From: Siniperca chuatsi
Lineage: Eukaryota; Chordata; Actinopteri; Centrarchiformes; Sinipercidae
Assembly (NCBI RefSeq): GCF_020085105.1
Contig: NC_058043.1
Coordinates: 11,492,667-11,556,666 of the forward strand
Direction: 5' to 3'
Length of the DNA: 64,000 bases
The notes beneath the pieces are model-generated. The model made no database searches, was not told the DNA's origin, and saw only the letters and a list, made by a program, of their open reading frames with translations. Both the position numbers and the translations under genes were made by a program. This document shows positions 21,570-61,829 of this stretch, one piece after another (positions within the stretch are counted from its first letter, which is position 1; every line of letters starts with the position of its first letter).

Positions 21570-22388
21570 CTGTACAGTAGTGAAGAGGAATTGAAGCTAT
21601 TTCAGGGTTGTTTCTTTGGCTTCACTGCCAATGATGTCCTGTTATAGATGCAAATGATTAACTCTTGCTGGTAACAGTTCCGTGTGTGTGTGTGAGAGAG
21701 AGAAAGAGAAGGGGTTGGAGAGAGAATTCATATTTGTTGTAATGGTGAGAAGGATTTTTTTTCATGCATTTGGTGGTTAATATTTCTACAGAACAAAAGT
21801 GATTTATAAATAATATATTGATTATTCCCTTGTACTGTGTTTACGGGCACGTTTCCACATTAGCTTTTCTACATATGCACACCTTGTAGCAGCATTACAA
21901 GTTTACATGTTAATCATTTCTGCTAAGCTTAATCCTCTCTGCCTAATGAAGGCCTATATAAAAAATACAAAAAAACATACATACTGATGGTTTTTCTGAC
22001 ATTATGGCATGTGTGTAAAATTCAGACAAGAATGTGTTTATATATTCAGATACATTTTATTCCATTTGATCAAGTTGCAAGCATAACTATCAAGTCATAT
22101 CTCTATCTATCTGTGTATTCTTTTACAGTGTTTTGCTGCCACCTAATGTTAAGGTACAGGACAACTGTTTCACAAGGCGTCTTGAACATAATGAAAGGGT
22201 TACAGTTAATAATTGACAAATTATTTAGTTCAGTAAGAGTATATTAGCTTTTGTACAGATCTCTCCTAGTCCAGCATGAATTAAAGGTCATTATAGTAAA
22301 ACCATAACCTGTTGCCACTCATAGGTCTTGCAACCAACAGCTGGGACTGAGAAGGGAATGACAGACTTCTCTAAGATGGCTTTCAGAA
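21570..22388 (-). repeat. Duplicated block A, 3' flank of the znfx1 pseudogene
   Basis: This segment aligns with about 44,590-45,290 and 46,110-46,180 in block B. Shared landmarks include GTAGTGAAGAGGA, TGATGTCCT, a TG/AG microsatellite, TTTGGTGGTTAATATTTCTACAG, ACATATGCACACCTTGTAGCA and CAGGACAACTGTT. It lies downstream of the gene's 3' end on the minus strand. Block B has about 0.8 kb more sequence (about 45,290-46,100) that is missing here. Homology to the left of about 21,570 is not apparent, so the low-coordinate duplication breakpoint lies near this point. Confidence 0.8.
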
Positions 22389-22716
22389 TAAGACGGTGTA
22401 GTCCCTCATTCGTCCAGGAGTGTTCTATCGTAGAAAAGGTTTCAGTCGTAGTCATCTGGACACTGTTTTCAGAATCAAGACGTTTCGGCTCTTTCACCTG
22501 AAACTGACACTATTAGGTCAGTTTCAGGTGAAACTAGCTATTTACAGATACTCAGGCAGATTCCTTCCTGAGGGCAGGGCTTATGTAACTCAGAGTAGTT
22601 TAAATTTCCAGTTCCCGTCCAATTTTTTCACAATTGAGAATGACTTCCGGATGGGAGCCGAAACGTCTTGATTCTGAAAACAGTGTCCAGATGACTACGA
22701 CTGAAACCTTTTCTAC
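22389..22716. mobile_element. Inverted-repeat insertion at the 3' end of the znfx1 pseudogene
   Basis: A foreign segment of about 328 bp is flanked by a 14-bp direct repeat (GATGGCTTTCAGAA at 22,375-22,388 and 22,717-22,730). It contains a perfect 64-bp inverted repeat with arms at 22,427-22,490 and 22,656-22,719. It also contains a separate 17-bp-arm, 8-nt-loop hairpin at 22,492-22,533. The corresponding part of copy B (46,181-46,207) carries the stop codon and last residues, which are absent here. The long direct repeat is more like a target-primed insertion than a cut-and-paste transposon. The arms resemble a repeat I believe is widespread in fishes, but I cannot name the family with confidence. 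Confidence 0.8.
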
Positions 22717-22721
22717 GATGG

Positions 22722-22884
22722 CTTTCAGAACTAAGCAGGGTGCTGTGTCCCATCCATCTCAGAGGCGACTTGGTTGCCACTTGCCAGTCTGTGACTGCCC
22801 CCACCAATAGTAGCATCACAGTCAGGGCAGTATCGACTCTCCATAGCCCCTCTACACTCTGTTATAAGATAGACATGGCCATTA
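22722..22884 (-). pseudogene. znfx1: znfx1 copy A, detached C-terminal fragment
   Basis: Read on the minus strand, this encodes [18 protein letters not shown], then [20 protein letters not shown] and ASEMDGTQHPA. It matches the C-terminus of copy B (46,204-46,366) with a few changes: the equivalent of [11 protein letters not shown] reads ECRGAMESRYC, and the Ala before QHPA reads Thr. The fragment is cut from the rest of the exon by the LINE at 22,885-26,052. On the other side it runs into the inverted-repeat insertion instead of the normal stop codon. Confidence 0.95.
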
Positions 22885-23245
22885 CATGAGCGTGCGCATG
22901 CGCCAACGTATATGCTGCTTGTTGCCGTAGCTCCGTCTCGTCGTCTTAAACTTTTTCCAACTTTTAGCTTTCCTTTTTCTTCCAAACTTGAGTAACTTGT
23001 GTGTAAGTATAATTTAAACTGCGCTCTTTACGAAAATGAGAGTAGAAAGTGTTTTAGTACTTTTTTTCACCGTGGAAATTCTTCTCCTGCTACTCTGTCA
23101 GGGCACCGCTGCAGATCAGCTGTTTGGCCGCATTGTTTACACTAGGGAACAGCTGATCGCACTGAAGCCGAGCGGCATGGCACCAAGGACACCCGATGTC
23201 CCCACTGAGATCTAGAGGAGGACACACCGAGGATGCAGAGGTGGA

Positions 23246-23850
23246 ATGAAGCAGCGAGGGAAGAGAGAGGGGTGCAGACAAAAGAGACTTAAGAACAAGA
23301 GATTTAAGCCGTGTCTGCCTTCTCTCGTAATGGGCAACGGGAGATCGCTGGCGAATAAAATGGATGAGCTAACGGCGTTAGCCCGGAGTCAGACGGAGTT
23401 CCGTGAGTGTAGTCTGATGTGCTTCTCAGAGACATGGCTACACCAGGACATCCCGGATCATAACATTTCTATCGACGGCTTTCAGACTGTTCGGGCGTCA
23501 GGGATCACACCGGGAGCGGTAAGCGGAAAGGCGGCGGGCTTGCTGTTCTGGTTAACAACAGATGGTGTAACCCTGGTCACGTTACTATCAAACAGAGTAT
23601 CTGTAGCCCGGACATTGAACTGTTAGCTGTGAGACTCCGGCCATATTATCTGCCACGTGAATTCTCACATGCCATTGTTGTGGCTGTTTACATCTCCCCC
23701 TCTGCTAACCCAGCATCGGCGTGCAACGCCATTCACACCGCCATACTCCAGACTCAACACCCGAGTGCACTTATTTTAATCTCAGGTGACTTCAACCATG
23801 TCAGTGTTTCAACAACACTGACTAATTTCACCCAGTATGTGAGTTCTCCT
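23246..23850 (+). pseudogene. LINE endonuclease domain fragment
   Basis: This is the N-terminal half of an APE-like endonuclease, which nicks target DNA for target-primed reverse transcription. It is split between frames at 23,246-23,530, a middle piece in another frame, and 23,629-23,850. Visible motifs are NGRSLANKM, then CFSETWLHQDIPD with the catalytic Glu, then VVAVYISPSANP and LILISGDFNHVSV with the Asp and Asn of the GDFN box. The segments carrying the later catalytic Asp and His boxes are missing, because the sequence jumps directly to the linker before the reverse transcriptase. Confidence 0.85.
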
Positions 23851-23914
23851 ACTAGAGAGGAGAGGACACTGGCTCTTCCCCCCTCCAGGCCGGGCCAACC
23901 AGGCCGACCTGAAG

Positions 23915-25617
23915 GTGAAGATCAGGGAGGCCAAGGAGAAGTACAGGAGGAAGCTGGAGTGGAAACTCCAGCAGAACAACATGAGAGAGGTCTGGAGTGG
24001 CATGAAGAGCATCACTGGCTTCAGACCGACTGGCAGCAGAGGAGTTGAAGGCAGCTTGGATAGGGCCAACAAACTTAATCTGTTCTTTAACAGATTCGAC
24101 ACTCCTGCTCATCCCCCCTCTAACTCAGCTGCTGTCGGCCCTCAAGCTCCTTTGAGTACTCTGCTCCCCCCTCCTCATCAGGCTAACGGCCCTCTTCACA
24201 CTAATGACTCCCCCCCTCCCCTGCCTGTAACCTCTGCTGTGTGCCTGACTGCTGACCAGGTGAGAGGACAGCTGATGAAACTCCACTCAAACAAGGCTGC
24301 AGGCCCCGATGGAGTTAGCCCCGGGGTGCTAAAAGCCTGTGCCCCCCAGCTATGTGGAGTCCTTCAACATGTCTTCAACCTGAGCCTGAGTCTTCAAAGG
24401 GTCCCTGTTCTGTGGAAGACATCTTGCCTCGTTCCTGTGCCAAAGAAGGCACGTCCCAGTAGCTCCAAGGACTACACCGGTGGCACTGACCTCCCACATA
24501 ATGAAGACCCTGGAGATACTGGTGCTGGAACAGCTGCAACCCATGGTCAGACCCCTCCTGGACCCCCTTCGGTTTGCCTACCAGCCTCGGCTGGGAGTTG
24601 AGGACGCCATCATCTTCCTGCTGAACCGCATCCACACCCGCCTGGACAAGCCGGCAAGCACGGTGAGGATCATGTTTTTTGACTTCTCCATTGCTTTCAA
24701 GACCATCCTGCCAGCCCTGCTGGGTGAGAAGCTGGCAGCAATGCAGGTGGATGCCCCCCTCGTGTCCTATATTGTGGACTACCTGACTGGCAGACCACAG
24801 CACGTGCGTCTGCAGCACTGTGTGTTGGACAGCGTGGTCAGCAACACTGGGGCCCCTCAGGGGACTGTCCTCTCTCCCTTCCTCTTCACCATCTACACCA
24901 CGGACTTCAGCCACCACACAGAGTCCTGCCACCTTCAGTTTTCTGATGACTCTACTGTGGTGGGATTTATCAGCGGTGGTGATGAGTCTGAGTACAGGGC
25001 TGTGGTGGGTAACTTTGTCTCATGGTGTGAGCAGAACCATCTGCAGCTCAATGCGACAAAGTCTAAGGAGCTGGTTGTAGACCTATGAAGGGCCAAGGCA
25101 CCAGTGACCCCGGTTTCCATCCAGGGGGTTAGTGTGGACATTGTAGAGGATTACAAGTACCTGGGAGTACACATGGACAATAAACTGGACTTGGGCCAAG
25201 AACACTCAAGCTGTTAACAGGAAGGGACAGAGCCGCCTCTATTTTCTGAGGAGGCTGAGGTCCTTCAACATCTGCCAGACAATGCTGAGGATGTCTTATG
25301 AGTCTGTGGTGGCCAGTGCTATCCTGTATGATGTTGCATACTGGGGCAGCAGGTTAAGGGTAGCGGACGCTAACAAGCTCAACAAACTGATCCGTAAGGC
25401 CAGTGACATTGTGGGGGTGGAGCTGGACTCTCTGGCGGTGGTGTCAGAGAAGATGATGCTGGCCAAACTACATGCCATCTTGGACAGTGTCTCGCACCCA
25501 CTCCATGACGTGCTGGTCAAACAAAGGAGTACCTTCAGCGGAAGACTCATCCCCCCAAAAAGCACCACAGAGCCATCAAACTCTTTAACTCCTCCCTCTA
25601 AGTGTCAGTCTGTATGA
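23915..25617 (+). pseudogene. LINE reverse transcriptase fragment
   Basis: The reverse transcriptase is spread over three frames: 23,915-24,478, 24,480-25,088 and 25,282-25,617. The finger and palm motifs are readable (KAAGPDGVSPGVLK, FAYQPRLGVEDAI, MFFDFSIAFKTI, GAPQGTVLSPF, FSDDSTVVG). The thumb-proximal YKYLGVHMDNKLD and the C-terminal RLRVADANKLNKLIRKASD follow. An Arg-type codon has become TGA at 25,086-25,088, and the CHLQFSDD box seems to have lost one codon before Phe relative to the usual family pattern. It has no capacity for full-length protein. Confidence 0.9.
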
Positions 25618-26052
25618 CCCTAAGTCATTAAACTGGACATTGATCATTACATCTATGCAGTACTTGACATAATTGTGCAATATTTCCTGTGTTAATACTC
25701 CCGGCCAATATACTTAAATTCCCTATTTATTGATATTGATATTTATTCATACCTCTATTACTGCTGTGCAATATCCTCTGTCTCATTATAAATAAGCTAC
25801 ACTTAACTTGGCAGTTCATGCACTAGTACTTTATACCATATTATTATCATCAACTGGTAAACCCACTTTGTACTTCACACTTATTTTATTTTATACGTAT
25901 ACCCACTTGGTACTTAATTTATTTTCTGACCTGTATTATACTGTATTATATTTTTTTGCCTAGTACTTCTATTCCTGTGTGCACTGACGTGAGCTGCTGT
26001 AGCAAAGAGTTTCCCCTAAGGGATCAATAAAGTATTTCTGATTCTGATTCTG

Positions 26053-28295
26053 ATTAGGACATTTGTGCCAGTGTCCTGGTGGCATTTTCACAGCCGAAAT
26101 GATCATCTTTCTCTCCTCCTCACTGATCCCCAAGCCTGGGAGTGGAAGCTTGTTGTCTAGTTCCTTCATGGCTTCTTTCACTCTGTGTTGATCTTGCTCA
26201 GTGAATTGGCCAGACTTTTCCAAAATCGCTGTTATTGTTTGTACCTCAGATTGAAGTTTGTCACTTTGCCTTCTCTTGTCTGCCATATGGCAATGGGCGT
26301 TGAGTTCAGTCAGGGGGGTGAGTCTCGGTAACTCTCTCTGCAAATCAAAGACCTGCTGGTCTGTGAATTTTTGGTGGCTGTTGTTGAGTCAGCGCGCAAA
26401 CTCCTCAACATACTTTTCTTATCTGAAGCTTTGCAAGAGTGACATGTTTTCCCTTTGGATCTTCCTCAGCTTTGCAACTCTTACTAGGAAATCTATCTTG
26501 TTTTCCAGGACCCACAGATCATTTGCTGTGAGCTAAGTTTTTCCCAGTCTGTCATTCATATGCATATATTCCTTTTGCTGATGCATTTCATATGTGTGAA
26601 GGTTATCCATCCACTGTTTTTGAAGGGCCTTCCTGTGTTCTTCAATATCTGCCTGATGTCCATTTATCTTTGCCTTTACCATCTCTATCTCAGCCAGACT
26701 GCTGTTGATGTGAGATCCATAGCGTAGATTCTTGCGGATTGGAGTTCGACACTTCGGACATTCCTTCAGTTTTATGGCCACCTGCTCTCCTTCATTTGCC
26801 TGCTGGCTGTCATCCATCCCCATGTATGTGTCCATGGCTGTGTATTCAATGATGTGTCCACAGTCTTCTAGCTGAATGAAGTAAGCATCAGGTTCATCCT
26901 CAGTGCCGAAGAAAATCTCTGTGACCTCATCGTAATTACAGATGCGACATTTGCTTGGACATTTGTCTCCACACAGACCTATAAACAGGTGGTCACAATC
27001 CAGGGTCTTGGCACAGGGTTGGGTGCATGGCGGAAGATAGCATGGCTCATAGCAAAACTTATTGCAGCTTTGGTGAGGGCACTGCCAAGCGCAGGGCTCA
27101 ATACACAGAGCACAGGGCTGTCCACATGGCTTCATACACTTGCTGTGGATGCAGCAATTCTCACATGGTCTCTGACAAGGGGGGAAATCGCGAGTGCAAG
27201 TCTCCCTGCACTTGTGAGAGCAAATCAGGAGACGCTCACACTGGTGTAAACATGGGAAATGGAATCGTCCCTGATAACACTTGCCACAGTTACCACCACA
27301 GGCATGGCCACATTTTAGCTGATGTTCACAAGGGGTCCTACATTCAGGCTCCTCTTTCTGTGTTTTGTAAAAACAGGCATCTTGCTGGCTGTGGCCACAC
27401 CTTAGTTTTAAGGTGACCTTCACCTTGCACTTACTGGTGCATGGTTCCCCACACAATGAATCACATGGATGTCCACAGTGAAGCAGCTTCTGGCAAGGCT
27501 CCTGGCATACAAATGGCAAGGAACCATGTGTGTGTGTTGACACTGGGGTATGATCTTCTCAACCTTCACTGGACATTTCTCTGGGCATGCTTTATGGCAC
27601 ACAAGTGTGCACCTGTGTCCCCGATCACATAAAATCTTCTGGCACTTCTTGCCACACTTGTACTCCTTGTGCTCAGGGTCGTAGGGGTGGCAGACTCTTG
27701 AGCAAACATGACCACAATCCAAACGGAACTCGCAAGGCTGGGTGCAGCCCCCCTCAGGGGCTTGTTTGAAATCATCAACATTTGAAACTTTTAGCTGTCG
27801 ATTTGGATGATTCTGACAGCACAGGGTCAGAGCATTCCCAACCTGGTCCTTCTGCCTCAAGGTGTAGAAGATGTTGCTCCACAGTTTGACTTGGCCCAGC
27901 ATTGCACTGTTGCCAATACAGTAGAGACCTTTCTTGGCACGAGACAAGGCTACACAGACTCGATTGGGAATGTTCAAAAAGCCAACTTTACCCTGTAGGT
28001 TGCTGCGGACCAGAGACAACAAGACAATGTCATTCTCTTCTCCCTGGTACTTGTCCACTACATGCACTTTGACCCCTGTGAACTGGCTGGCAGGCATAAG
28101 TTTGCGCAGACAGTGGAGCTGGCCGGTATAGGTCGTGAGGATAGTAATTTGCTCTGGTTTGTAGTCTTGAAAGAGAAGATAGCGGCAAAGAGCGACTACA
28201 AACATCGCCTCATGTCGGTTCTGATGGCTTCTCCCATCTTTGATCTCTTCTTCTGGGTAGTTGTGCTCCACAAAGAATAAATTGGTATTAATGCT
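26053..28295 (-). pseudogene. znfx1: znfx1-A last exon: helicase C-terminal lobe and NFX1 zinc fingers, broken
   Basis: This part carries helicase motif V ([15 protein letters not shown]) and motif VI ([11 protein letters not shown]). The Cys/His-rich NFX1-type finger array and the coiled C-terminal region follow. A 16-bp deletion near 27,514 shifts the frame between MVPCH and FVCQEPCQ, so two separate open frames result (27,420-28,271 and 26,533-27,543). Nonsense codons follow where B has Tyr (26,533-26,535) and Trp (26,389-26,391). Several finger residues kept in B are lost: CGHPCIGLC reads [16 protein letters not shown] reads TRDFPPC, and EPCDRLPC reads EPCYLPPC. This pattern is expected after constraint on metal binding was relaxed. 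Confidence 0.95.
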
Positions 28296-29164
28296 CTGTA
28301 AGACAGCATTTAATAAAAACTTATTCTATGTTGTGCTTTGATAGAATGTCTTTTGAATTCAGTATTCTTAATCTTGTATACATTGCCCATCTTTGACTCA
28401 AAATATATTTAAAAGTCTAAGAGACAATGCAGAGACGTTTTATCCATGCAGGCAAGTAAACAGATTTTCACTGCTAAGAAAAAAAAAGCAGAATGGAAAT
28501 GCAGCAGGAGAGCAAATACAATACGCACCTTGATGCTCTCATAGTTCAACACAGAGGGATGGTTTTCCAGCTCTGAGTAGATGTGTGGGGTCAAAAGACA
28601 GGCAATGTCTGGCCTCATACGATGCTGAAGAACAAACCAAAACACAAACACAGATAAACACAGGCAATCACCTATAGAGAAAGAGGCACCTACAGTCATA
28701 CACACAAACATACCAGTGTAATGTTTTCAACTTTAACTGCATCATGTAAATACGTCTACATTTTATTGATTGATAGATCTTACAATAAGATTAACAAATT
28801 AATAGATACAGAAACACAAACCTGGTAGTTGAGTCTGACATAACCATCTTCACCAGCCTCTCAAACATGGACATCTCCAGGTGGAAGTTCTTAGCAAGTT
28901 CATATACTGTGGCACTGGGGCACAGCTAAAGGAAAAATCACATGTTCATCATATGCTCTAAACACTTCTGTTTTTATGAATTATTGTTAAGGGAAAGTAA
29001 AAATGAATGGCTTATTACATAGTTCCTAGAGACAGGTGGAAGCAACCATCTAGGTGCAAACCCAGAGGGGATAAACAATATTCTGAGGGTTTCTGTTTTC
29101 GGGTAACTGGACGGAATATAGAATGTATACAAATGGACTCTTTCCTTTGCTGTCCTGTTTTGCC

Positions 29165-29234
<70 letters not shown>

Positions 29235-29258
29235 TGTAAGTGTAAGTGTCTGTGTGTG
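29165..29258 (+). repeat. (TG)n microsatellite in a znfx1-A intron
   Basis: A run of about 35 TG units with later TGTAAG interruptions. The equivalent block B site (49,827-49,866) has a much shorter TG run, so the repeat length changed after the duplication. Confidence 0.95.
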
Positions 29259-32200
29259 TTTGCAAACCTACTTTAGCTAGAGGACAGAGTGTGAATGTAC
29301 GTGGGTGTGGGGAAGGCAAGACCAAACCTGAGATTAATAAATAGCACAACAATGCCAAAGCTTATTTTACTCAGAAAGTGTGATCCATCCACCGCCATTA
29401 CATGCACAGATTCAAGTTTGGCTTCCACAAAAACAAAGCTCTGAACACTTGTTCATAGAGTGAAAATAAATACTATCAAATGGCTTTAAACCCATGAAAA
29501 TAACCCATATTTGTGCCATCAGAAAACCTCATCTTGTTTGCTTTTTTGTTTTTATGTTGTTTTTACCACACCTGCACTAATTTAACTGTCCAGTACTTTC
29601 AATCGATAAATCAGACATAATTTAATATTGATTGATTTATTTTGCACTTGTAATCAACATATGTACAAATTGTGCCCACTAAAACAGTGAAGTGAAAGAA
29701 AATTACTTTTATATTAATCTGATGTACCTGATTTATAAAAATGGCCATTGATTTCCAAGCCCAGGTTATAATAAAAGCAATTTTCAAGTCAAACTCTATT
29801 TTAAATTCCATTCTTGCTAAACTTTTAGGACCACTGCAAGGAAGTCAGAATTGTTTGTATAGTCAAATGCATGCATAAATTCATGCATAAACACAGCACA
29901 ACAAGCAAATATTAGGAAAAGAGCAGACAGAAGTTACACCGCAAGAAGAGACCAGGACAGAATATTGAGATGTGTGATAGAATTGTGTGTAGTCGTGATC
30001 GCATTCTGCAGATTGCTAGACAGGCTGCCTGGCCATATGTCCTTGGCAGGCCATGAAAAATTGTTGTAATAGTCTACTGATGTCCAGCATAACACTCCTC
30101 ACTTTTCTCTATCTCTCGTAATGTCTGGCATGGGATGTGTTTTTTTTTTTGTTTGTTTTTTTTTTTTTGCCATTTCCCTCAAGGCAGTACACACAAACTT
30201 ACTGACAACCACACAAATATACAAATCCCTCATGACAGGTTATCCTTCACATTTTCACCTAGGCATGTAAATGGGATAATTTCAGTCAGAGGATGATTGC
30301 TTATTAAAATAAGCACCAGTGCACAAATTACCACGCAAAGTTTAATGCGATGCAACTAAGAGTTTAGGAATCACTGCCCTATTTGTCTGTGTGGGTTCTT
30401 ACCTGCTGGTGGTCTGGGATGAGGATGAGGTGTTGACATGCTTCACTCAATGTGGTGATGGTGTGGGCCTCGAGCACCTCTGCAGCCTCTTCTACAATCA
30501 CCAGATGTGGACGAACTTCCTGCAGAACTTTACAGAACTTGGCCGCCCCTGTTGTTGTCATGCCAATAACCTGATGGAAAGTATAAGTGTTTATTTACAC
30601 ACCTCTGCTATTTTTATGATTAATTTTATAACCACAAACAATTGTATTGTTGCCTGCCCTTACATGTATAGTATTGCTAATTTTAATACCAGCCTATTTG
30701 ATGGTGTTATTACTTTTTGGTCATTTTAGTCTTATTGTTCACGGTGATCCACGGATAGTGTTGTGAAGAGTTTTCGCTACTTTCTACTAGTGCTGGGAAG
30801 TTCAAGTGTTACGTTACTCAGGGCCAGACTTCTAAATATATTGAGTACTTCAAGTTTTTGAGTAGTGTTACAAGAGTGCAAGGCACACTATCATGATATG
30901 TGTGTACCAAGGGGAAGTAAAGCAATTTCTTTCATCATCCTCTCTAAATATTGTACTGTAGGCTACATAAAGCTAATCTGAACATGAATTCAAGAAGTGT
31001 TTTACTTAACTTACTGTGATAACTCTGTTGAAGTTTTGACTAAAACAAGGAACAACTGTAGGATCATTTAAAAAATACTATTCATACTATCTGTCACTGC
31101 AATTATACTGTACCGTGGCTTCCTTGAGGAGACAGAGGTTCTCCTGACGTTTTACATCAGCCAATCTGTCTACTGCATTCTGATAGGCCTGTTCAGACTC
31201 TAGGACTCTGGTGCAAAGTTCTACCCTGTAGCGTGCCACCCACAACCTGCAGACACAAAGTAAATGAATAATAGTAAAACACTGTGACAACTGACTCAAT
31301 CATATAGAAGTCTGAAGACTCATTATTTGCATCTGCATCTGGAAGTATACTCAAAATATGATGCTGTGGTACTTGATATCACTGTAAATGTAGTTAAACA
31401 ATTATGGCAAGACCTATTTTATCTGTCTTGGAGGGAAATTGCCCTATTTGTTAGTTTAAAAGATAATTAAGATTGTGTAAACATGAGTCGTTACAGTCCT
31501 GTTTTCACAGTAATAGAAGTTACGTCTTGGCTCTCTGAGGTGAGAAGATCCTCTGGGATACATTTTCCTGGTGATTAGTTGACTTAATAATACACACTGG
31601 GAATAGACTACTTCTACCAGACTGAGGTTGCTTGGGGGATGAGAGGAAATGAGGAAAAACAAGGAAGAAAAATTCAGAAGGAGGAAAGGAGGACAGAAAT
31701 GTAAGCAAGGTTCTAGAAGACGTGATGGAAAGTAAGAGTTTGAAAAAGAGGCACATTTGTAGTGAACAAAGGAAAGAAAAGTGAAACACAGATGCAGACC
31801 TACCGATAGAGTCTCCATCTGTCTGGAAGGCTTGGAGTCCAAATATCCAAGACAGCATCTTCCTCTTTGTCAGTCATAGCCGAGCTCTTCCCCAGCTCTT
31901 TCCTGATTCTGTTCTTCTTCTTTCTCTTCTGGTCCTGTTGGATCTGTACAGATCAGAACAGGGTTAACTTTGAACTTCATACCTTTGAACTGTTTTAAAT
32001 CCTAACTCATCTGGATCTTGGAATCCATTGTAACAGCTGTGAATTCAAGCTGATCACAGCTTTTCAGAGCCACCTTTCAAGCCTACAGGTGTTGAGTATT
32101 TAATACTCAAAAAATATTTTTCCTGGTTAAATATTCCTTTAAGCAAGGCACTTAATTATCTCCTTTGCAGGTGCTGCGCTGTTCTTCGAAAGTTAGCCTA

Positions 32201-32278
32201 CCCTGTAGAATATGTGAGCACTAGAAGTGCTATAGAGCAATGTTTTTATGAATGTGGCGCTGCACAAGCATGCACACG

Positions 32279-32310
32279 TGAAAGCAGGTGAGGTGACTCA
32301 CCTGCTTTCA
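32279..32310. repeat. Perfect hairpin in a znfx1-A intron
   Basis: Arms TGAAAGCAGGTGAG and CTCACCTGCTTTCA (14 bp each) flank a GTGA loop, with weaker pairing further out. The same hairpin sits at 52,899-52,930 in copy B, so it predates the duplication. No function is evident. Confidence 0.85.
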
Positions 32311-44738: not shown

Positions 44739-44776
<38 letters not shown>

Positions 44777-45290: not shown

Positions 45291-45531
45291 TTAGTTTGGC
45301 ATTAAAAACTATATTCCAAAATGTATTCTGTGACTTGTTATAGTATCCTTTGTACATGATTTCTGCAGCAAAGCATTTTTAAAACAAAACCACCACCCAC
45401 AATGTCTACGTTCAAATACAACTAATCTGCTTTAGCAAATATGTTGGAGGAAACTTAATTTCATCCAATCACAACTTTATCAACATAATAGGAAAACATT
45501 CATACTGAACGTATCGGAACATATTTGCATG

Positions 45532-49820: not shown

Positions 49821-49855
<35 letters not shown>

Positions 49856-52800
49856 GTGTAAGTGTAAGTGTCTGTGTGTGTTTGCAAACCTACTTTAGCT
49901 AGAGGACAGAGTGTGAATGTACGTGGGTGTGGGGAAGGCAAGACCAAACCTGAGATTAATAAATAGCACAACAATGCCAAAGCTTATTTTACTCAGAAAG
50001 TGTGATCCATCCACCGCCATTACATGCACAGATTCAAGTTTGGCTTCCACAAAAACAAAGCTCTGAACACTTGTTCATAGAGTGAAAATAAATACTATCA
50101 AATGGCTTTAAACCCATGAAAATAACCCATATTTGTGCCATCAGAAAACCTCATCTTGTTTGCTTTTTTGTTTTTATGTTGTTTTTACCACACCTGCACT
50201 AATTTAACTGTCCAGTACTTTCAATCGATAAATCAGACATAATTTAATATTGATTGATTTATTTTGCACTTGTAGTCAACATATGTACAAATTGTGCCCA
50301 CTAAAACAGTGAAGTGAAAGAAAATTACTTTTATATTAATCTGATGTACCTGATTTATTAAAATGGCCATTGATTTCCAAGCCCAGGTTATAATAAAAGC
50401 AATCTTCAAGTCAAACTCTATTTTAAATTCCATTCTTGCTAAACTTTTAGGACCACTGCAAGGAAGTCAGAATTGTTTGTATAGTCAAATGCATGCATAA
50501 ATTCATGCATAAACACAGCACAACAAGCAAATATTAGGAAAAGAGCAGACAGAAGTTACACCGCAAGAAGAGACCAGGACAGAATATTGAGATGTGTGAT
50601 AGAATTGTGTGTAGTCGTGATCGCATCCTGCAGATTGCTAGACAGGCTGCCTGGCTATATGTCCTTGGCAGGCCATGAAAAATTGTTGTAATAGTCTACT
50701 GATGTCCAGCATATCACTCCTCACTCTTCTCTATCTCTCGTAATGTCTGGCATGGGATGTGTTTTTTGTTTTTTTTGCCATTTCCCTCAAGGCAGTACAC
50801 ACAAACTTACTGACAACCACACAAATATACAAATCCCTCATGACAGGTTATCCTTCACATTTTCATCTAGGCATGTAAATGGGATAATTTCAGTCAGAGG
50901 ATGATGGCTTATTAAAATACGCCAGTGCACAAATTACCACGCAAAGTTTAATGCGATGCAACTAAGAGTTTAGGAATCACTGCCCTATTTGTCTGTGTGG
51001 GATCTTACCTGCTGGTGGTCTCCGATGAGGATGAGGTGTTGACATGCTTCACTCAATGTGGTGATGGTGTGGGCCTCGAGCACCTCTGCAGCCTCTTCTA
51101 CAATCACCAGACGTGGACGAACTTCCTGCAGAACTTTACGGAACTTGGCCGCCCCTGTTGTTGTCATGCCAATAACCTGATGGAAAGTATAAGTGTTTAT
51201 TTACACACTTCTGCTATTTTTATGATTAATTTTATAACCACAAACAATTGTATTGTTGCCTGCCCTTACATGTATAGTATTGCTAATTTTAATACCAGCC
51301 TATTTGATGGTGTTATTACTTTTTGGTCATTTTAGTCTTATTGTTCACGGTGATCCACGGATAGTGTTGTGAAGAGTTTTCGCTACTTTCTACTAGTGCT
51401 GGGAAGTTCAAGTGTTACGTTACTCAGGGCCAGACTTCTAAATATATTGAGTACTTCAAGTTTTTGAGTAGTGTTACAAGAGTGCAAGGCACACTATCAT
51501 GATATGTGTGTACCAAGGGGAAGTAAAGCAATTTCTTTCATCATCCTCTCTAAATATTGTACTGTAGGCTACATAAAGCTAATCTGAACATGAATTCAAG
51601 AAGTGTTTTACTTAACTTACTGTGATAACTCTGTTGAAGTTTTGACTAAAACAAGGAACAACTGTAGGATCATTTAAAAAATACTATTCATACTATCTGT
51701 TACTGCAATTATACTGTACCGTGGCTTCCTTGAGGAGACAGAGGTTCTCCTGACGTTTTACATCAGCCAATCTGTCTACTGCATTCTGATAGGCCTGTTC
51801 AGACTCTAGGACTCTGGTGCAAAGTTCTACCCTGTAGCGTGCCACCCACAACCTGCAGACACAAAGTAAATTAATAATAGTAAAACACTGTGACAACTGA
51901 CTCAATCATATAGAAGTCTGAAGACTCATTATTTGCATCTGCATCTGGAAGTATACTCAGAGCCGAGGTCAAAAAATATGATGCTGTGGTACTTGATATC
52001 ACTGTAAATGTAGTTAAACAATTATGGCAAGACCTATTTTATCTGTCTTGGAGGGAAATTGCCCTATTTGTTAGTTTAAAAGATAATTAAGATTGTGTAA
52101 ACATGAGTCGTTACAGTCCTGTTTTCACAGTAATAGAAGTTACGTCTTGGCTCTCTGAGGTGAGAAGATCCTCTGGGATACATTTTCCTGGTGATTAGTT
52201 GACTTAATAATACACACTGGGAATAGACTACTTCTACCAGACTGAGGTTGCTTGGGGGATGAGAGGAAATGAGGAAAAACAAGGAAGAAAAATTCAGAAG
52301 GAGGAAAGGAGGACAGAAATGTAAGCAAGGTTCTAGGAGACGTGATGGAAAGTAAGAGTAAGAAAAAGAGGCACATTTGTAGTGAACAAAGGAAAGAAAA
52401 GTGAAACACAGATGCAGACCTACCGATAGAGTCTCCATCTGTCTGGAAGGCTTAGGGTCCAAATATCCAAGACAGCATCTTCCTCTTTGTCAGTCATAGC
52501 CGAGCTCTTCCCCAGCTCTTTCCTGATTCTGTTCTTCTTCTTTCTCTTCTGGTCCCGTTGCATCTGTACAGATCAGAACAGGGTCAACTTTGAACTTCAT
52601 ACCTTTGAACTGTTTTAAATCCTAACTCATCTGGATCTTGGAATCCATTGTAACAGCTGTGAATTCAAGCTGATCACAGCTTTTCAGAGCCACCTTTCAA
52701 GCTTACGGGTGTTGAGTATTTAATACTCAAAAGATATTTTTCCTGGTTAAATATTCCTTTAAGCAAGGCACTTAATTATCTCCTTTGCAGGTGCTGCACT

Positions 52801-55800
52801 GTTCTTTGAAAGTTAGCCTACCCTGTAGAATATGTGAGCACTAGAAGTGCTATAGAGCAATGTTTTTATGAATGTGGCGCCACACAAGCACGCACACGTG
52901 AAAGCAGGTGAGGTGACTCACCTGCTTTCATGCATACATGACACGTGAGGCACAGTCCTGCCAATGGTTACAGACCATTCCACTGATCAACAGTAAGTGA
53001 CAGTAACGTGCCAAGAAATTAAGCAATGCATCAATAAAGACAGATTAGACAGACTGCTAACAAACAAACATGGATGTAAATAATGCATGTTACAAATGTT
53101 TCCAAAAATCAACTTTTCAAATATTTTCTGTGGAAGGAAATGCATTCAACACATGTGTTAGACCTCAAGAACACACAATGCATTTTGTTAAGAAATAGTA
53201 AAGTTAAGTACAGTGCAGCATCTGTAAAGATATTGTTCTATTGGACAGCTCTTAGATTTATGTGCTCCTCTCAAACCAGCCTAGTATTGGTCTATATAAT
53301 AGCATTCTCAATCAATTTGTCTGATTGAATAGGGATTGCAAAAATGTTAAACTGATTACAATCTCCTCTTAATTTTACCTCCCATCCTTCCTCGCTCTGC
53401 TCAGCCTGAATTTCAGCTTTATCCAGGTTCATAGCCAGCATTAGTTCTTCTACTGCTCTGACAGCTTCCTCCATGTCTCCCTTCTTTCTGCCATCTCTAC
53501 CACCTCTGGGACCAATGTTGTCTTCAATAATCCGCTCTGCCTGGAGCAGATCTGCTTCCTCTGCGATTTCAATGAGGTCCTCTTCTTCCAGCTCCATCGC
53601 TTCCGCCGCTGCTATATCTAACACATTACAGTAAGAATCTGTATGAGAATGATTCACCAGTACAATGAATGCACTGCATTTTAGTTTTCATTGAAAACTT
53701 ATAAAGTTGCATGGAGTGTAATAACACACAAGAAAAGAAAGAAAAGTCCTAAAACACAGAAAGATAACATAGGAAGTGTATGAGGGGACAGACAATATCA
53801 GTCTACATTCAACATACTGTATGTACATTCCATGATAAATGGTGGGTTTATATAATCTTCAGTTACTGAAATGGTCTATCTGAACTGGGTGCTGGATTAT
53901 ATATTATTGCTTAGCTACAAAATCCTGCTGGAGATGTTTAGAGTTTAGACTTTGATGGTCATTTTGCCATTTATTGAGCTCTTAAGTGTTCATTTCAGCT
54001 GGTTTGGAGACTGCTGAAAAGGAAAGTTCTACCTGGCTGAGTGGCTGGTGTTGATACAAACTGCTGTGGACTGGGAATGAAAATACAATGATTGAATCCA
54101 GTTTCATCTTAAAAGTAACTGTCAATTTTAAACTGATATTTGTCTGCGGGACAAGTTCTCTTCATGCTTTACACCACAATCACAACTACTGCAATACAAT
54201 ACAACAAATAACTCTTAACCTTGGTATATTCCAGAAAACAGGCTACAAAAAGCAAGTCTTACTTCGAAAAGCCTGACATCAGTTGCTATAAACACTGAGG
54301 CGTCGAGCACAGATCACATCAATTTACTATGAAGAAAATGCACAAGAGAGAGCTGCTACTTCACTTTACAAGATTATATTTTCCATTTCAGTACATATCA
54401 TATCAAAAATATTTTTTTTAAATTGAGGTTATAAACAAGGTTTGAGGTATGAGGTTATATATAATAAACAGTTCAGTTGACTTATTATAAATTAAATCCA
54501 TTTGCTTAAAAAATGAAAAGGCCTCTGTGGAGTGTTGTTAAAATTATCTATTCAGACTAATACAGTTATAGTTTTGCGGGGCTGTTTACACACTATCAAT
54601 GAAAATAAGCCAATTATCAGTTCCTCTTATAGTGAGCTCACACCAGAAGCTTCATGAGCGCCGCTGGGTGCGCTGGTCACTGCCAGCCCTCGCCATGCGG
54701 CGTTAAACTCCGGGAAACCAGTGACCGCAACAATCAGTTTCTACTCCATTACTGCTTATGTCTCCCTATAGGGAGACGTTTACAGGGGGAAGAACATCAA
54801 ATCCCGATCTGCAATTCGTCGCTGCTTCAGTGTGTCCCTGTAAATTTACATAAAGTTCAGCTCAGCTCAACTTCAACTCGTTGCTCTGGTCACTGGCATC
54901 GCGCCGCTAGCCGCAGCCACGGCGTTGGGCGCTTCTCGTCGCCAGCTCCCATTGAAAATGAATGACTGCTAACCGCTTTTGTAGCTCATGAAGCTTGAAA
55001 AGCTTGAAAAGCTACTAAGCCTGCTCGGAACTCACATGAGAAAACACTGATTTGTGAAAGATATAATTGGCGGTGTTGCTACATCCATAAATGTCCTGCC
55101 TGATTGGTACTGCGCATGTGAAACTCTCAACAGAGATGAGAAAGAAGCGAGATGGCTCACTCGTTAGCTACTTCCATACACTTAATATGTAGTTTACTTA
55201 TTTTGTCATATATCGGATTTATGTATGCTGCGCTGCTCAGAAGTTGCTTCTGGGACAGATGTGGCCAATTGAATAGGCCCGACTTACAGTAAAAGCCTTA
55301 CCTTCATTTCTATTTGCATTCTCTGTCTCCCTCTGCAGGAAGACGGTGGAACCCAAACCCAACCACTCCATTATCAGACTGGACTTCTTCTCACTCCAGG
55401 TCTCAAAACCATCCTGTGTCTACAAATCATTTCATAAACACAAACTGATGAGTCTTTTATTCTGTCTAGCTCAGTTAACACAAATCAAAAATAAACATTT
55501 TATATGTGTATTTTTTTTATCAGTATGACTCACAGGTGGTAGGTGCAGACTGTCCCAGTGTATGTCTGAAATGAACTTCTCTAAGAAGCTTTCTCGCAGG
55601 ACGCCTTTCAGAGAACACTCCAGCCTCATACTCTGACTCTGAATGCCCCTCTCCTCCTGACACAGCTGCTTGTAAATCTGTTAAACAGGTCATGCATACA
55701 ATGATTAGGTGGAGAAATCACACAAGAATGTGTGTGATATACTGCAACTTGTAGTGCTGTGATGTGCATATGTGTGACAAAAAGATGAGGTACAAAGTGT

Positions 55801-58800
55801 GCATCAATATGATAAACTTAAGACTATTAATAGAATATAAAGGCTAAATTATTAGGAATTATTTAAACTTATCCTTGCATATATTCTCACCACTTTGCTA
55901 TGCATGAGAGAAATGAAGTGTGGAGCAACTTGAAACATCAAGTTAAGTTATAAGAGTTAAACTGTAGGTCAACCAACATGAGGAACTCACCTCACTATAT
56001 GCGTATCGCAGGTGAGACGGCAGCGTACGTCTGAAGTCATGTGAGTGAGTCAGCTCCCTTAGATTGAAACGCTTCAGGATCTCACTGTTGCTGCGGCCTC
56101 CTACTCTCACTATGCCCTCTTGCAGAAATGTATGAATACCTTAAATACAGAGGCAAACCAAATGCACATCACATCCACCAAAACAGAAAGCTTATTTGTC
56201 TTACATCGCCCATTCAAGGTCACCAAGTAGGAGTTTGCAAAGACAAAAAAAAAACAAATAAAACTTAAAGTAGATGTATGTGGCCCATTAGCAAACATTT
56301 CAGCATATAAACAAATACAACAACAAAGAATTACTGTTTGAACTAGAAATAGATATGTCCCCTTTTGTTGACAAAAGACTGTGTTCTTAAATCCCAAACC
56401 ACTCAAACAACATAGATAGATGTTATTATGAACTGGCATAACAGCTTACCCTCAAGGAACTGATCCAGGGCATGGTTAGTGTAACACACTACCAGCATCG
56501 GAGCCGTACCAAATCTGTCTCTCCAAAGATCCTGATTGGTCAACAGAGCCTGAGCAATCTTAAGGCCAACGTAGGTTTTTCCTGAGAAAATGGAGGAAGC
56601 AGAGTAGCCTGATTTTAATGTATTTCAGAAGCAAAGTGAAACTTTGCAATTCTTTGGATTTTGCCATTTTACAAATGCGTGAAATACATTTTACACATTT
56701 CATTCACAATGAATGAAGTCATCCTTCCAACAATGGCTGTTCAATGTCTCACCAGTGCCAGGAGGCCCCTGTATGATGGTCAGCTCCTTCGTGAGGGCCA
56801 GCTGGAAGGCTCTCATCTGGGACTCATCCAGCCCCAGCTCCTCCATTCTCGGCCAGGCCTCTTCCTCCAGGCTGTGAAAGGGCCGTATACTGTCCTTATA
56901 GTCAGGGTCAGCAATGGATGACAGGTCATAGATATCTCTTCTTTGCAGATAAGCTGGGGGTTGCACATCTGTGCTGCACTCCACGATGTACCTGGAAGCA
57001 TTAAGGATTGCATTTTTTAGCGTCTACTATCTGTGTAAAAGGATGATGTAGAGACTTCTCATTAATAGATACTTAATATGTTCTTTCTGAAAGCGAGCCT
57101 TTGTAACTTTTGCTGAACAGCGGCCACTGTGGCCACAAGCACATAAAGGATAATGATCAATGTAAAAATCATAGTGTAGCACTAGCACAAGTAGAGAAGT
57201 CATTGGACTGACTCATTCATGTCAACTCCCATGGTGTAGTTCTGTAGGAAAAAGAGTTTAAAGTTGTTTCAGGTAGTCACAAGAGAAAGGTCTGGGAGAC
57301 AGATGGCCAACAAAGTGTCATAATGTATAATACATTACTTTGTGGTATCCATGAAAGGCACTTGGAGTGCAGACAATAACCAAACTTTTGAACTCATCCA
57401 TGCGTGATAGCATTTTGGGAATACTGTGGCAGTATAATTAACTCATGCCAATTAAAAGTGTGATTGCTTACTTGCTTTGTACCATTTCTCCCTCCACTTC
57501 CCTTTGAAAAATCTACATGTGAACTCATTTTGAGAGTGCTGTGGGATTATATAAAAACTATGACCTTGACAGTAAAATGTGAAACTCCTCCACAGCACAC
57601 ATACACACAGATACACACTCCTACCTCTGAAAGGGCATGCTGTCCTCCTCCTGCTCCTGTAGGCCCTCTAGAACATACCGATAGGCCTCAAAGTAGGCAG
57701 TGGTCTCAATCATCAGGAATAATTGACCTTTCTGTCAGATAGAATGAGTTTAGTTCTTTGTATATCCATTACATATAAAACCCTGTACCTATCCTGCATG
57801 TTAGCAACTAAACAGTCTTGGCAAGGTTTTGATTCAACTTTATGGTCATTTAGAGGCTGTAGTTTGTGGTGCTATACAGTTATAGTGGTGGCATAGAGGT
57901 GGTTTTAAAATCTTGTCCATCCCATTTATATTAGTGAGGGTAGACTAAATATTACAAACACTACACATTATTTTAATGTTGCCTAATAAACTGCAAACTC
58001 AAAGTACATTTCAGTTACAGCTTATGTAGATTAAGTGTCTGAAATTAGACCATAAGATCAAATCCTCCTTGCCTCAGCAACTGCATGCTTGCTGCCCTTA
58101 TCAACAATTGTTGCACACAATCTACTGCCCCACCTGAATTCTGGCCAACTTGAATCTGCTTTCTTCAGTAAAGGTAATCTGGACCTGTCCTCTCTGCAGG
58201 CTATTGGGATCCCGATCTGACACTGTGGCAAACAAGAAGCTCTCAAAATTATCACACGACAGGCAGACCAGGGAACCATAGATCAGCCTCTTGGAGTTCT
58301 GCCAGCGCACAAACTGTAGGATGCATGGGGAAAGTATTATTAATATACATGTTAATATATGTCTTTCCATTTGCCATTCAATAAGCAAAATACCAGTGTA
58401 TCTCTTAAAGAATTTGCTTAAAGAATGTGCTTGATTGTATTAGTCAAATGTCATATAAACACTAAATGTAACAAAGATCTAAATCCATCCAGAGGCTAAC
58501 CTTAAGTGGCTGAATGTCAAACTGGACTATGTAGGCGAGTCCAGTCGGCGTGCACTTGGGTACCACCAGTTTTGTGTCAAAATATACTCTGATATCATCA
58601 AAGCGCTTCGTCTTCAGTGAATTATCACTCCTTCCTCCTTCTCTTCCCATTTGGTTCCGAAGCAATTGCTGGATCCCCTCACGGAGTGGCCGCACAAAGT
58701 CCTCTCTCAGCAGCCGGAAGTGCGTGTCAAGGTAGAGATGGGTGTTTGTGTAGCGCTGAGAGGTGAGGTTGGGTCTAAGGAAGGGCCTGTGGTCCTGATG

Positions 58801-60918
58801 GAACTCCTCACGAGTTGGGTAGATGGGTATGGTCCTGAAATCTTGCTGCTCTTCTTCACCTGGGTTAGAATTAGTGGGAGTTTCAGTTATTCACATATCT
58901 ATAAAACTGTGTGGCAATTTTCAAAATATCCCAAAATATTTTCTGGTTAATTGTGCAGTGTTGTGCAGATATCCGTAAGAGGCCATTACCTGGGTTATCA
59001 CGTCCAGTGGGTAGGAGGGCATAAGTGTCCCTGTCTGAGCGCAGGGTACCCTCCCTGGATTTCTCCTGGAGGTGCCTGATCAGGCCCTGAACACTCTCCA
59101 CACTCTCCTCCATTTGAGGCTGGATGTCCACTCCAGATGCCCTCAGGCTGTTGATGGAGGCTTGGAGCAGCGTCAGCAGCAAACTCACTGCCTGGACAGA
59201 GCTAGCAGGGAAGATGCTGAGGACCTAATAAGCATATATTGAGGATAAGTAGTTAATGTATATATATAACTACAAGGAGTTCAACTACTAATTTAAGAAT
59301 TGTTAAAAGAAAGAAGCACGATCAGGCTAAAATAATCAGTCCTTTTAAATTATTTGTTTTAGAAACACGGATAAAAGGTTTGTTAAAGGCCCTAATTTCT
59401 CTCAATGGAGTTCTACAGGAACACAGAGAGATTACTGAGAGATTTTCGTATTTGTTCATTTTTATTTTTTTGTCTGTGTTTTTCTTACTGGTTTGAAGTG
59501 GGCGGGACTGATCTAGACAAAGCAAATATATATAATCACATATTTAAAATCTGATCAAACAACACCTACACAGAGCTTTTGAGCATTAAACTCTTAATAC
59601 CAATACCAATTCTGATTGTTGCTTATTTATCCATGTATATTTAATGAAATACATAGTGTAAGATTTGAAACCAAGGCTTTTAAGTATTTCATAATGTTAT
59701 TTGTAGATTTAGTTCAACTGCTTTTGAAGTAATAATCTGAAAATTATTCTACTACAATTACAGAACATAGTTTATTGCAAAGAAGCACTACTCACTTGCT
59801 AAAAAGACTCAGCTGTCCATGAGGACTTCTGTTCGTGCCCTTCATCAAAGATAGCTTTTCTGGGTCTACTCAATTATTTTGTGTACTTTTCTTGTATTCC
59901 TTCATTTATCCTTCAGCTGAATTTACCAATTGATTGGTTTTTTTTGTTCATTCCTTCCTCTATTTACCTCTGACAGAATAGCCAGGATGTTTTCCAGATG
60001 TCGTGGGTATTGTGCCCTGCGGACGAGATTGAACTCTGACTCCATGCCCACCAGATAGTGGGGAAGGATGGTGCGGAAGAACCCTGAGTCTTTTATGATG
60101 CCAGCCAAGTGCTGTAGGGTGCCTCTGTCTGTCCGTGATTTGAAGGCTTTACTCAGCACCAGGCAGAGGAGTTCGACAAGGTCCTGCCTCATTGTTGTCC
60201 CACTCAGGACATCTTGTAGGGCAGGGTTACAGGACAGGGTGATGGCCACTACAGACGGGTCTTTTCCAGAGAGTTCTTCCATTGTTTTATAGCCCAGTCC
60301 ATGGCCCTGTGGTGTTCCGACTCTGCCTGTAGAATTTGATCTCCCTCCATTCCTCCCCTGTCTGTCTCCTACACCATCTCTTCTCTCACCCCCTCTACCT
60401 CCTCCCCTTCTCTCTCCTTCTCTTTCAGCTGCACCTTGCTCTCCATTTCTTCTTGCACCACCTCTCTCTGCTCCTTCTCCTCCATTTCCACCTCTCCCCC
60501 TCCCTCCTCCTCTCTGTCTGGCTCCTCCCCACTGTCTTCCTGCACCTCTTTCGCCCCCTCTCCCTGCGTCTGCTGCTCCTCCTCTTCCTCTTCCTCTGCC
60601 TCGCACACCTTCACCTCCTCCTCCCCCATCTGTCTCGTCCCTGCCTTCTCTTCCTGCACCTCTTTCACCCCCTCTTCCTGGGTCTGCTCCTCCTCCTCCT
60701 CTTCCTCTGCCTCTCCCACGCATCCCTCCACCTCCTCTTCCTACTCCTCCATCTGTCTCCTCCCTTTCAGCTTGATTTCTCCCATGACTTTGTGCTCTTC
60801 TTCTGCCCTCTGTTCCTCTCGCCTCGGCCCCCTGTGCACCTCCTCGTCTTCTCCCTCTGCCTCCACTAGCATTTTCATTTTGGCCAGTATCAGTACCTGG
60901 GGAAAAAACAACATTCAT
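46177..60918 (-). CDS. znfx1: ZNFX1 copy B, intact: NFX1-type zinc finger-containing protein 1 (SF1 RNA helicase, antiviral RNA sensor)
   Basis: In mammals ZNFX1 is an interferon-inducible helicase-like protein that binds RNA and signals through MAVS at mitochondria. Coding exons read from splice sites are: 60,896-59,968; 59,224-58,990; 58,859-58,501; 58,313-58,134; 57,731-57,625; 56,991-56,753; 56,581-56,450; 56,139-55,991; 55,677-55,534; 55,419-55,302; 53,617-53,379; 52,563-52,424; 51,852-51,720; 51,176-51,009; 49,264-49,154; 48,956-48,861; 48,627-46,177. They join in one frame and total 5,930 nt. The order is an RG-rich N-terminus, a ZNFX1-specific region, a split helicase core ([44 protein letters not shown]), NFX1 fingers and a C-terminal CxxC tail. 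From the Met at 60,721-60,723 the protein would be 1,918 residues, about the human length. The 60,918 start applies only if the 60,896 acceptor is not used. Confidence 0.96.
49350..49664. other. Block-B-specific intron segment (about 315 bp)
   Basis: Between flanks shared with copy A (ending AAAATGAATGG and resuming CTTATTACATAG), copy B has about 315 bp with no counterpart. The segment is AT-rich and I see no TIR. It could be an insertion in B or a deletion in A. Confidence 0.8.
51009..51176 (-). CDS. znfx1: znfx1-B exon with helicase Walker B and motif III
   Basis: The 168-nt exon encodes [20 protein letters not shown], then [15 protein letters not shown] and [17 protein letters not shown] is the SF1 motif II (Walker B) that coordinates magnesium and activates water. 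GDHQQ, continued by LRP in the next exon, is motif III coupling ATP hydrolysis to RNA. The exon is in phase with its neighbours (ACG|GTT and CAG|CTG). In copy A the Gly codon of GDHQQ is CCA (Pro). Confidence 0.95.
52899..52930. repeat. Perfect hairpin in a znfx1-B intron
   Basis: This is the same 14-bp-arm, GTGA-loop hairpin as at 32,279-32,310 in copy A. Confidence 0.85.
53379..53617 (-). CDS. znfx1: znfx1-B acidic insert exon of the helicase core
   Basis: The 239-nt exon encodes [40 protein letters not shown] and [20 protein letters not shown]. It matches the acidic low-complexity insert that mammalian ZNFX1 carries between the early helicase motifs and motif II ([19 protein letters not shown] in human, recalled). 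The next exon is strongly basic ([12 protein letters not shown]). The insert may be a regulatory or RNA-contact loop, which is inference. Confidence 0.92.
53687..54178. other. Block-B-specific intron segment (about 490 bp)
   Basis: Copy A passes directly from TTTTAATTTTCA to ATCACAACTACTGC at about 33,070. Copy B carries about 490 bp extra between the same flanks. No coding content or clear transposon ends were recognised. Confidence 0.8.
54632..55285. mobile_element. Block-B-specific repeat-like insertion in a znfx1 intron
   Basis: About 650 bp replace about 14 bp of copy A (33,455-33,470). The segment is GC-richer than its surroundings (GCGCCGCTGGGTGCGCTGG) and contains related inverted words (AGAAGCTTCATGAG near 54,645 and CTCATGAAGCTTGA near 54,985), as in a non-autonomous DNA element. 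The ends and the target-site duplication are not resolved. The 103-codon frame inside is not supported as a gene. Confidence 0.55.
56450..56991 (-). CDS. znfx1: znfx1-B exons with Walker A (motif I) and motif Ia
   Basis: Two exons (56,991-56,753 and 56,581-56,450) flank an intron placed inside the P-loop. The first ends [11 protein letters not shown] after GGC ACT G; the second supplies GA AAA ACC to complete GKT. The Q-motif-like [18 protein letters not shown] lies just upstream, and [16 protein letters not shown] follows as motif Ia. An intron interrupting the P-loop codon explains why no single open frame shows a complete Walker A. The same arrangement is kept in copy A. Confidence 0.95.
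59968..60896 (-). CDS. znfx1: znfx1-B first large coding exon: RG/RGG-rich tail and conserved N-terminal domain
   Basis: The 929-nt exon follows a good acceptor (TTTTTTCCCCAG) and ends at the donor AGAG|GTAAAT. Its 5' half encodes a Gly/Arg-rich tail with GRGRGRGGG and RGGERGAGR repeats. A 114-bp internal repeat (units from about 60,535 and 60,649) adds about 38 residues compared with copy A. Its 3' half encodes the folded start of the family: [20 protein letters not shown] through [14 protein letters not shown]. The strict purine/pyrimidine strand bias gives long meaningless frames on the other strand. RGG tails usually bind RNA or promote condensates; that is a family inference. Confidence 0.93.
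60535..60763 (-). repeat. 114-bp coding tandem repeat in the znfx1-B RG-rich region
   Basis: The stretch starting TCTTCCTGCACCTCTTTC on the plus strand recurs at 60,535 and 60,649 with only a few changes. The 114-bp period equals 38 codons, so the frame is kept. Block A has one unit, so this is a copy-number difference between the paralogues. Confidence 0.85.
60719..60723 (-). promoter_or_regulatory. znfx1: Candidate znfx1 start codon (Met before the RG repeats)
   Basis: An ATG at 60,721-60,723 begins [10 protein letters not shown] and is the first in-frame Met after the exon's acceptor at 60,896. The same Met survives in copy A (38,805-38,807, [10 protein letters not shown]). Starting here gives 1,918 codons of protein. 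An upstream in-frame ATG at 60,916-60,918 lies before the acceptor and would need a different first exon. ATGs in exon 1 are out of frame once spliced. Confidence 0.55.
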
Positions 60919-61829
60919 GTACAGAGACCTTGAAAATGAACACCTACTTTGCTAGACTTGTACGCATGTTTTTACTTGTTTGCCTCTCATACTGTATAAT
61001 TACCATTAATAGGTCCTCTTCTCCCTGTTAATAAAGTCAGTCTTTCCATGGTCTTAATTTGGTAGTTGTTGAAATTTAACGCTGATGATTTCTGAGTGGC
61101 AAGAAAGTAAAGGGTGAAAGTGAAAACCACACATTTGAGCATGATTACACAACAGTTTGAAGGATGCGTAATTTATGTATAAACCCATAAAAACTTCTGA
61201 GAAGTGGTTATACTTTCACTGTTATGCACTGTGTTCTATTCATGTTTCTCACTATTATTAGTATAATTTGCAAGGTCCCAGGAGTGTTGGAGTCAGATAA
61301 GAAGGGGTGATCTCACTGTTTATAGCTTCTGAGGAAAATGAAATTGAAATGCCCTCAGTAATATGCCTCATTTTAACTATTCTGGATATTTTTAATTAAA
61401 ATGCACATTTTATTCCAATGCTTTTTGAGAGTGTACTTTGCTTGCAATTGAAATGACTTAACCCAAATAGAGAGTGTGCCCTCTACTGGATGCAGAAAGG
61501 ACTTGCATGGGAGTGTTTGTAGGTTTCTTTTCACTAGAAATCGGAACACAGCTTTTGACCACAAAATCATGGCACGGATCCGCTGAAATACCCTAAGTCT
61601 TTACAGGTACAAACAAGATAGTAAATGTGCAAAGCCTTTTGTTTGTTCTAATTTTCTCATGTTCTATACTCCGCAATAATTGTATACATTTCTTATACTG
61701 ACATGATTTTTTTCATTATCAGTCCGGATCTTCATCTAGTGCTATATTTCATTAATATTTCCTGATAATTCAGCCAGCTGTACCTTCCACCCTCTCCCCA
61801 ACCGCAACATAAAGGAAGAAAGAACTTAC

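Follow-up and report, generated by a model that had tools for sequence, protein, structure and literature searches.

The znfx1 genes of fishes

Poly(I:C) is reported to induce ZNFX1 in grouper (PMC12585102), cod (PMC3534563) and carp (PMC13355688). For Atlantic salmon, two genes are reported, ZNFX1a and ZNFX1b, which respond differently to virus and rIFNg, with one of the two being induced (PMC12234341). The locus of Siniperca chuatsi analysed here is similar in that one fish genome carries two znfx1 genes, but the salmon genes are described as homeologs (PMC12234341), whereas the present pair lies in tandem and one of its copies is broken.

Among the literature matches listed, no description of a tandem znfx1 pseudogene was found in titles and abstract openings. 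Unprocessed duplicated pseudogenes with interlocus gene conversion are a known general class, and the decayed copy of the present locus (copy A) resembles them in its kept introns, its one-sided breaks and its patchy identity to the open copy (copy B). The locus is an ordinary case of birth-and-death evolution in an antiviral gene, and it displays together how an RNA-sensor gene encoding an RNA helicase was duplicated, decayed and was apparently homogenised.

Two tandem copies of znfx1

The analysed stretch of DNA, referred to as the window, is 64,000 nucleotides long, and its features are collected in Table 1. The initial annotation had described a pair of direct minus-strand copies, with self-alignment named as a check, and this alignment bears the layout out: nine collinear direct pieces with 77-99% identity link block A to block B in a blastn self-comparison of the window, with pieces also being returned by megablast. 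The length and identity of the match dismiss a chance origin, and a tandem duplication with an open copy B and a decayed copy A is well supported.

Table 1 Features of the two znfx1 blocks, with positions in the window; bases given as missing from A are scored against B as the reference and could, case by case, equally be extra in B
Feature	Position	Strand	Basis or remark
Block A, decayed znfx1 copy	21,577-39,741	minus	blastn self-comparison
Block B, open copy of znfx1; homology extends into the promoter side and the 3' flank	44,597-61,590	minus	blastn self-comparison
Spacer between blocks	39,742-44,596		4,855 bp
B coding exon 1, start codon	61,004-61,049	minus	46 bp; phase fits exon 2; missed in earlier count of 17
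B coding exon 2, covering the RG-rich N-terminus and beginning of the conserved N-terminal part	59,968-60,896	minus	
B coding exons 3-11, overall span	55,302-59,224	minus	Splice sites and protein alignment to 9q9z
B exons 3-6	59,224-58,990; 58,859-58,501; 58,313-58,134; 57,731-57,625	minus	
B exons 7-9	56,991-56,753; 56,581-56,450; 56,139-55,991	minus	
B exons 10-11	55,677-55,534; 55,419-55,302	minus	Exon 11 start uncertain by 6 bp
B coding exons 12-17, overall span	48,861-53,638	minus	Splice sites and protein alignment
B exons 12-14	53,638-53,379; 52,563-52,424; 51,852-51,720	minus	
B exons 15-17	51,176-51,009; 49,264-49,154; 48,956-48,861	minus	
B coding exon 18, encoding the C-terminal helicase part (AAA_12), the Cys-rich repeats, the RZ finger and the stop	46,177-48,627	minus	Cys-rich repeats by eye
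A counterparts of coding exons 1-17 (39,124-39,079 down to 28,624-28,529)	28,529-39,124	minus	Mapped by alignment
A coding exon 1 counterpart	39,079-39,124	minus	
A exon 2 frameshift	38,869-38,870	minus	13 bp missing relative to B
A exon 4 frameshift	36,889-36,903	minus	Two 2-bp insertions, net +4, within near-identical tract
A exon 16 frameshift	28,843-28,844	minus	7 bp missing relative to B
A exon 18 frameshift	27,513-27,514	minus	16 bp missing relative to B
Three premature stop codons in A exon 18, read in the frame of B	26,389-26,535	minus	Codons from 26,535, 26,421 and 26,391
LINE-type retrotransposon insertion, splits A exon 18	22,885-26,052	plus	3,168 bp, antisense to znfx1; Pfam and self-alignment
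Segment 26,053-32,978 (3' half)	A 26,053-32,978		104/6,878 substitutions per aligned sites (1.5%)
Segment next to the tract	A 32,979-33,655		42/663 (6.3%)
Near-identical tract, within exon 2 to intron 10	A 33,656-38,608; B 55,458-60,407		8/4,944 (0.16%)
Segment with coding exon 1 and start of exon 2	A 38,609-39,741		61/1,041 (5.9%)
Intron 11 island	A 33,069-33,456		388 bp, only 77% identical to B 54,177-54,630; blastn
B-only segments on either side of the intron 11 island	B 53,689-54,176 and 54,631-55,274		
GAAAGTGAAA element ahead of A	39,199-39,208	plus	75 bp ahead of A's ATG
GAAAGTGAAA element ahead of B	61,116-61,125	plus	67 bp ahead of B's ATG

Copy B

The gene model of copy B, which was built on splice signals, phases and one homologue (9q9z) only, comprises 18 coding exons and 1,998 codons, with the frame being open throughout. 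The initial annotation had assigned the same 17 coding exons to both copies; the exon set is indeed the same in A and B, but it numbers 18. The last-exon open reading frame of B (46,177-48,657, minus strand) matches 9q9z, the solved NFX1-type zinc finger-containing protein 1, with an E-value of 1e-122 (414 bits, residues 1190-1450, phmmer), and the other exon pieces, when joined, score 1,081 bits against residues 231-1191 of the same protein (phmmer). B also matches 9eve, a separately solved N-terminal chain, and its helicase core reads GPPGTGKT. Pfam places an AAA_12 domain in the last exon and an RZ-type finger at the C-terminus (PF20173, E 1.3e-21, residues 756-800 of the 826-residue open reading frame), and no NFX1-finger model is among the Pfam matches up to E 0.001 in this exon. 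The first of the Cys-rich repeats fall within the 9q9z alignment, and further ones were seen by eye. Copy B shares with ZNFX1 the AAA_12 and RZ-type domains and an alignment across most of the length of 9q9z, and is unlike it in the RG-rich N-terminus ahead of the aligned part and in the broken second copy alongside. B is presumably the working gene. Past its promoter side, the plus strand at 63,513-63,788 encodes the N-terminus of a protein resembling TBC1D20 (4hl4, E 6.6e-19), and tbc1d20 is the divergent neighbour of this copy.

Copy A

GT and AG are intact at all 17 introns between the coding exons of copy A, and its coding sequence is disabled at many points. Reading from A's own start halts after 71 codons, exon 2 is additionally without 111 bp of B (in frame, scored as in Table 1), and the changes in exon 18 include the loss of two cysteine codons. 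Nine coding breaks were counted in total, the LINE included, and all of them lie in A. The comparison of exons and codons thereby agrees with the earlier statement that every gene-breaking difference falls in this copy and that B is open; only A has lost its reading frame. With the exception of the exon 4 insertions, the breaks sit outside the near-identical tract and are independent of the quality of that tract. Judged from its sequence, copy A is an unprocessed (duplicated) pseudogene, with introns kept, the parent gene adjoining and the coding sequence disabled.

The insert that splits exon 18 of A carries a reverse transcriptase domain on the plus strand (RVT_1, PF00078, E 5.3e-20), and ATTA is found at both of its junctions, the end repeat being only 4 bp long. 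The domain and the short end repeat together identify the insert as a LINE-type retrotransposon. The insertion point corresponds to B 46,369-46,372, about 64 codons upstream of B's stop, and by coordinates it falls in the stretch that codes for B's RZ finger.

These breaks bear on the alternative, named already in the initial annotation, that the second copy is an assembly artefact, produced by joining the two haplotypes of a single locus end to end. All nine coding breaks, the LINE among them, would then have to lie on one side; flanks that are 5-8% apart around a core differing by 0.16% are not normal for two haplotypes; and the 4.86-kb spacer is devoid of homology to the 5' flank of B, as found by sequence comparison and a shuffle test. 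A haplotype artefact is very unlikely on these grounds.

Mosaic divergence between the copies

Over A 26,053-39,741, the copies differ by 215 substitutions in 13,526 aligned sites, a count from which indels and large one-sided segments are excluded, and these differences form a mosaic of segments (Table 1). Exon sites differ at 0/1,985 positions in the near-identical tract and at 63/3,144 in the 3' half, where exon divergence is not below that of non-exon sites. Of the non-exon sites, 30/630 differ in A 38,609-39,741 and 49/639 in the 3' flank (A 21,577-22,230), so that flank divergence ranges from 5 to 8%, with the alignment being less certain in the flanks and in the RG-rich exon 2. The longest substitution-free run spans 1,944 sites, compared to a maximum of 784 in 2,000 permutations. 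The 1.5% segment is patchy too: none of 2,000 permutations attained the variance seen among its 250-site counts, and 31 of 2,000 contained a substitution-free run as long as its longest, of 557 sites.

The introns had been described as nearly identical, which holds in parts, but their identity is uneven, given the B-only segments and the 77% island in intron 11. The intron segments that are extra in B measure 315, 488 and about 640 bp, and one end of the near-identical tract lies about 190 bp from the B-only segment of about 640 bp. Exon 11 shows 0 substitutions in 118 bp despite its position in the 6.3% segment outside the tract, which makes the tract's lower border rough. The intronic hairpin reported as common to both copies is present at A 32,269-32,320 and B 52,889-52,940, with one base differing close to the tip of an arm; the repeat search at its thresholds reported it in A only. 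Two clusters of changes were observed in the near-identical introns, at 36,170-36,179 (four substitutions and a 4-bp indel) and at 38,129-38,142 (three substitutions and a 1-bp indel).

The initial annotation regarded the duplication as recent. Such a single event, without conversion, would require faster mutation, or alteration by insertions, in the 3' half, the flanks and the intron 11 island, and it agrees with the 97-99% identity of three long block pieces (blastn/megablast) and with the simple repeats contained in the flanks. One event predicts one neutral divergence over introns and flanks, and is for this reason unsupported: non-exon divergence amounts to 8/2,959 in the near-identical tract against 46/3,820 in the 3' half, which is about 4.5-fold lower, and the top segment split, with a log-likelihood ratio (LLR) of 41.6 where 500 permutations reached at most 10.5, is far outside the permutation range. 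A single recent duplication is rather unlikely, and the mosaic divergence favours an older duplication with later gene conversion. From the earlier interpretation, tandem duplication with B open and A decayed is retained and the single recent event is not. High identity by itself can misdate duplicates of this kind.

Probable gene conversion after an older duplication

Protein constraint is not the cause of the identity of the tract, since the introns within it are near identical as well. A single crossover does not explain the tract either, because divergence is about 6% on both sides of it, and non-allelic gene conversion fits better; a high-identity tract bounded on both sides by more diverged sequence, here with a rough border, is the pattern by which interlocus conversion is recognised.

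The explanation that we consider best, with a probability of roughly 0.7, is an older tandem duplication followed by the decay of A and then by interlocus gene conversion, likely from B to A. According to this order of events, which we infer together with the direction of conversion, znfx1 would have been duplicated in tandem some time ago, and the upstream copy B, beside tbc1d20, would have remained open. The downstream copy A would have lost constraint and accumulated frameshifts, stops and the LINE insertion. Later non-allelic gene conversion between the copies would have re-homogenised about 4.9 kb between a point in exon 2 and intron 10, with the sequence of B most likely overwriting that of A. 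This direction is the simpler one, because the exons of B in the tract are open and A is decayed elsewhere. As a practical consequence, expression or knockout work on znfx1 in Siniperca chuatsi would have to tell apart two nearly identical 5' halves.

The 109 substitutions in A 26,053-33,064 include 29 CpG-changing transitions, with the CpG being present in B in 24 cases and in A in 5 (p = 0.0005), and since the loss of CpG is biased to A, the decay leans to this copy. In exons 12-18, 42 of the 58 differing ungapped codons alter the amino acid or create a stop. The dN/dS of 0.59 in these exons, being <1, counts against full neutrality of A, so that A was constrained part of the time, or much of the silent change is B's.

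Indels follow a different pattern from substitutions in the near-identical tract, where 10 indel events accompany 8 substitutions, versus 8 for 104 in 26,053-32,978. Seven of the 10 events in the tract are 1-bp indels, versus none in 26,053-32,978 (p = 0.002); elsewhere, one was found in 32,979-33,655, four in the 3' flank and none in 38,609-39,741, and the excess in the tract is not significant against all other segments pooled (7/4,944 versus 5/9,221, p = 0.13). Inspection by eye shows that five of the seven simply lengthen or shorten a homopolymer; of the remaining two, one falls in a T run next to other changes and the other outside homopolymers. Some of these 1-bp indels may be technical, as residual sequencing error, and the exon 4 insertions of A could possibly be such a residue too.

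The odd ratio of 10 indels to 8 substitutions and the five homopolymer differences are what speaks for a further explanation, in which the duplication is real and the near-identical tract of A (or B) results from local misassembly or faulty polishing, by which one paralogue received the sequence of the other. A misplaced tract is predicted to be fully identical, yet clustered substitutions and two 2-bp insertions are present. Short reads cannot be assigned to one copy of a near-identical repeat during polishing, and poor short-read polishing is just as expected with two true near-identical copies. An assembly cause is possible for part of the mosaic; as an account of the tract as a whole, such an error is unlikely, and conversion after an older duplication is preferred.

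Promoter element, block edges and spacer

The GAAAGTGAAA element, which we take to be IRF/ISRE-like, occurs at the two sites ahead of A and B only, in the whole window and on both strands. A strict ISRE (GAAANNGAAAC followed by a pyrimidine, or [AG]GTTTCNNTTTC) has 0 occurrences in the 64 kb, and the looser GAAANNGAAA has 7 on one strand of the window and 5 on the other. As a lead only, GAAAGTGAAA may be put forward as a candidate element for infection-responsive control of znfx1. The start exon and this element are retained in A, and its 5' half would have been kept B-like by conversion, from which it might be argued that A is a regulated pseudogene, perhaps co-transcribed with B in infection and acting as decoy RNA, as source of a truncated N-terminal protein or as sequence donor to B; such a role appears quite improbable. 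An internal ATG in A opens 352 codons.

Homology past the block edges was assessed with 30 shuffles as the background. Both right-edge tests scored below the shuffled maximum (729 versus 831 and 444 versus 487), whereas one left-edge test was below it (914 versus 925) and the other just above (234 versus 231). The 52 bp just outside A (21,527-21,578) match B 44,545-44,596 in inverted orientation with 86.5% identity. A transposon end at the left block edge was considered for this match and set aside; the sequence looks like a small local inversion, which it perhaps is.

Elsewhere in the window, Rfam returned 0 matches at gathering thresholds and ARAGORN 0 tRNAs. A plus-strand open reading frame of 206 residues (1,453-2,073), for which no Pfam match was found, presumably resembles part of a retroelement (RT/RNase H). 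The spacer contains an 18-bp tandem repeat of about 7 copies (41,673-41,795), and its positions 40,991-41,210 match 896-1,110 at the left end of the window in inverted orientation (231 columns, 65%), perhaps as a dispersed repeat.
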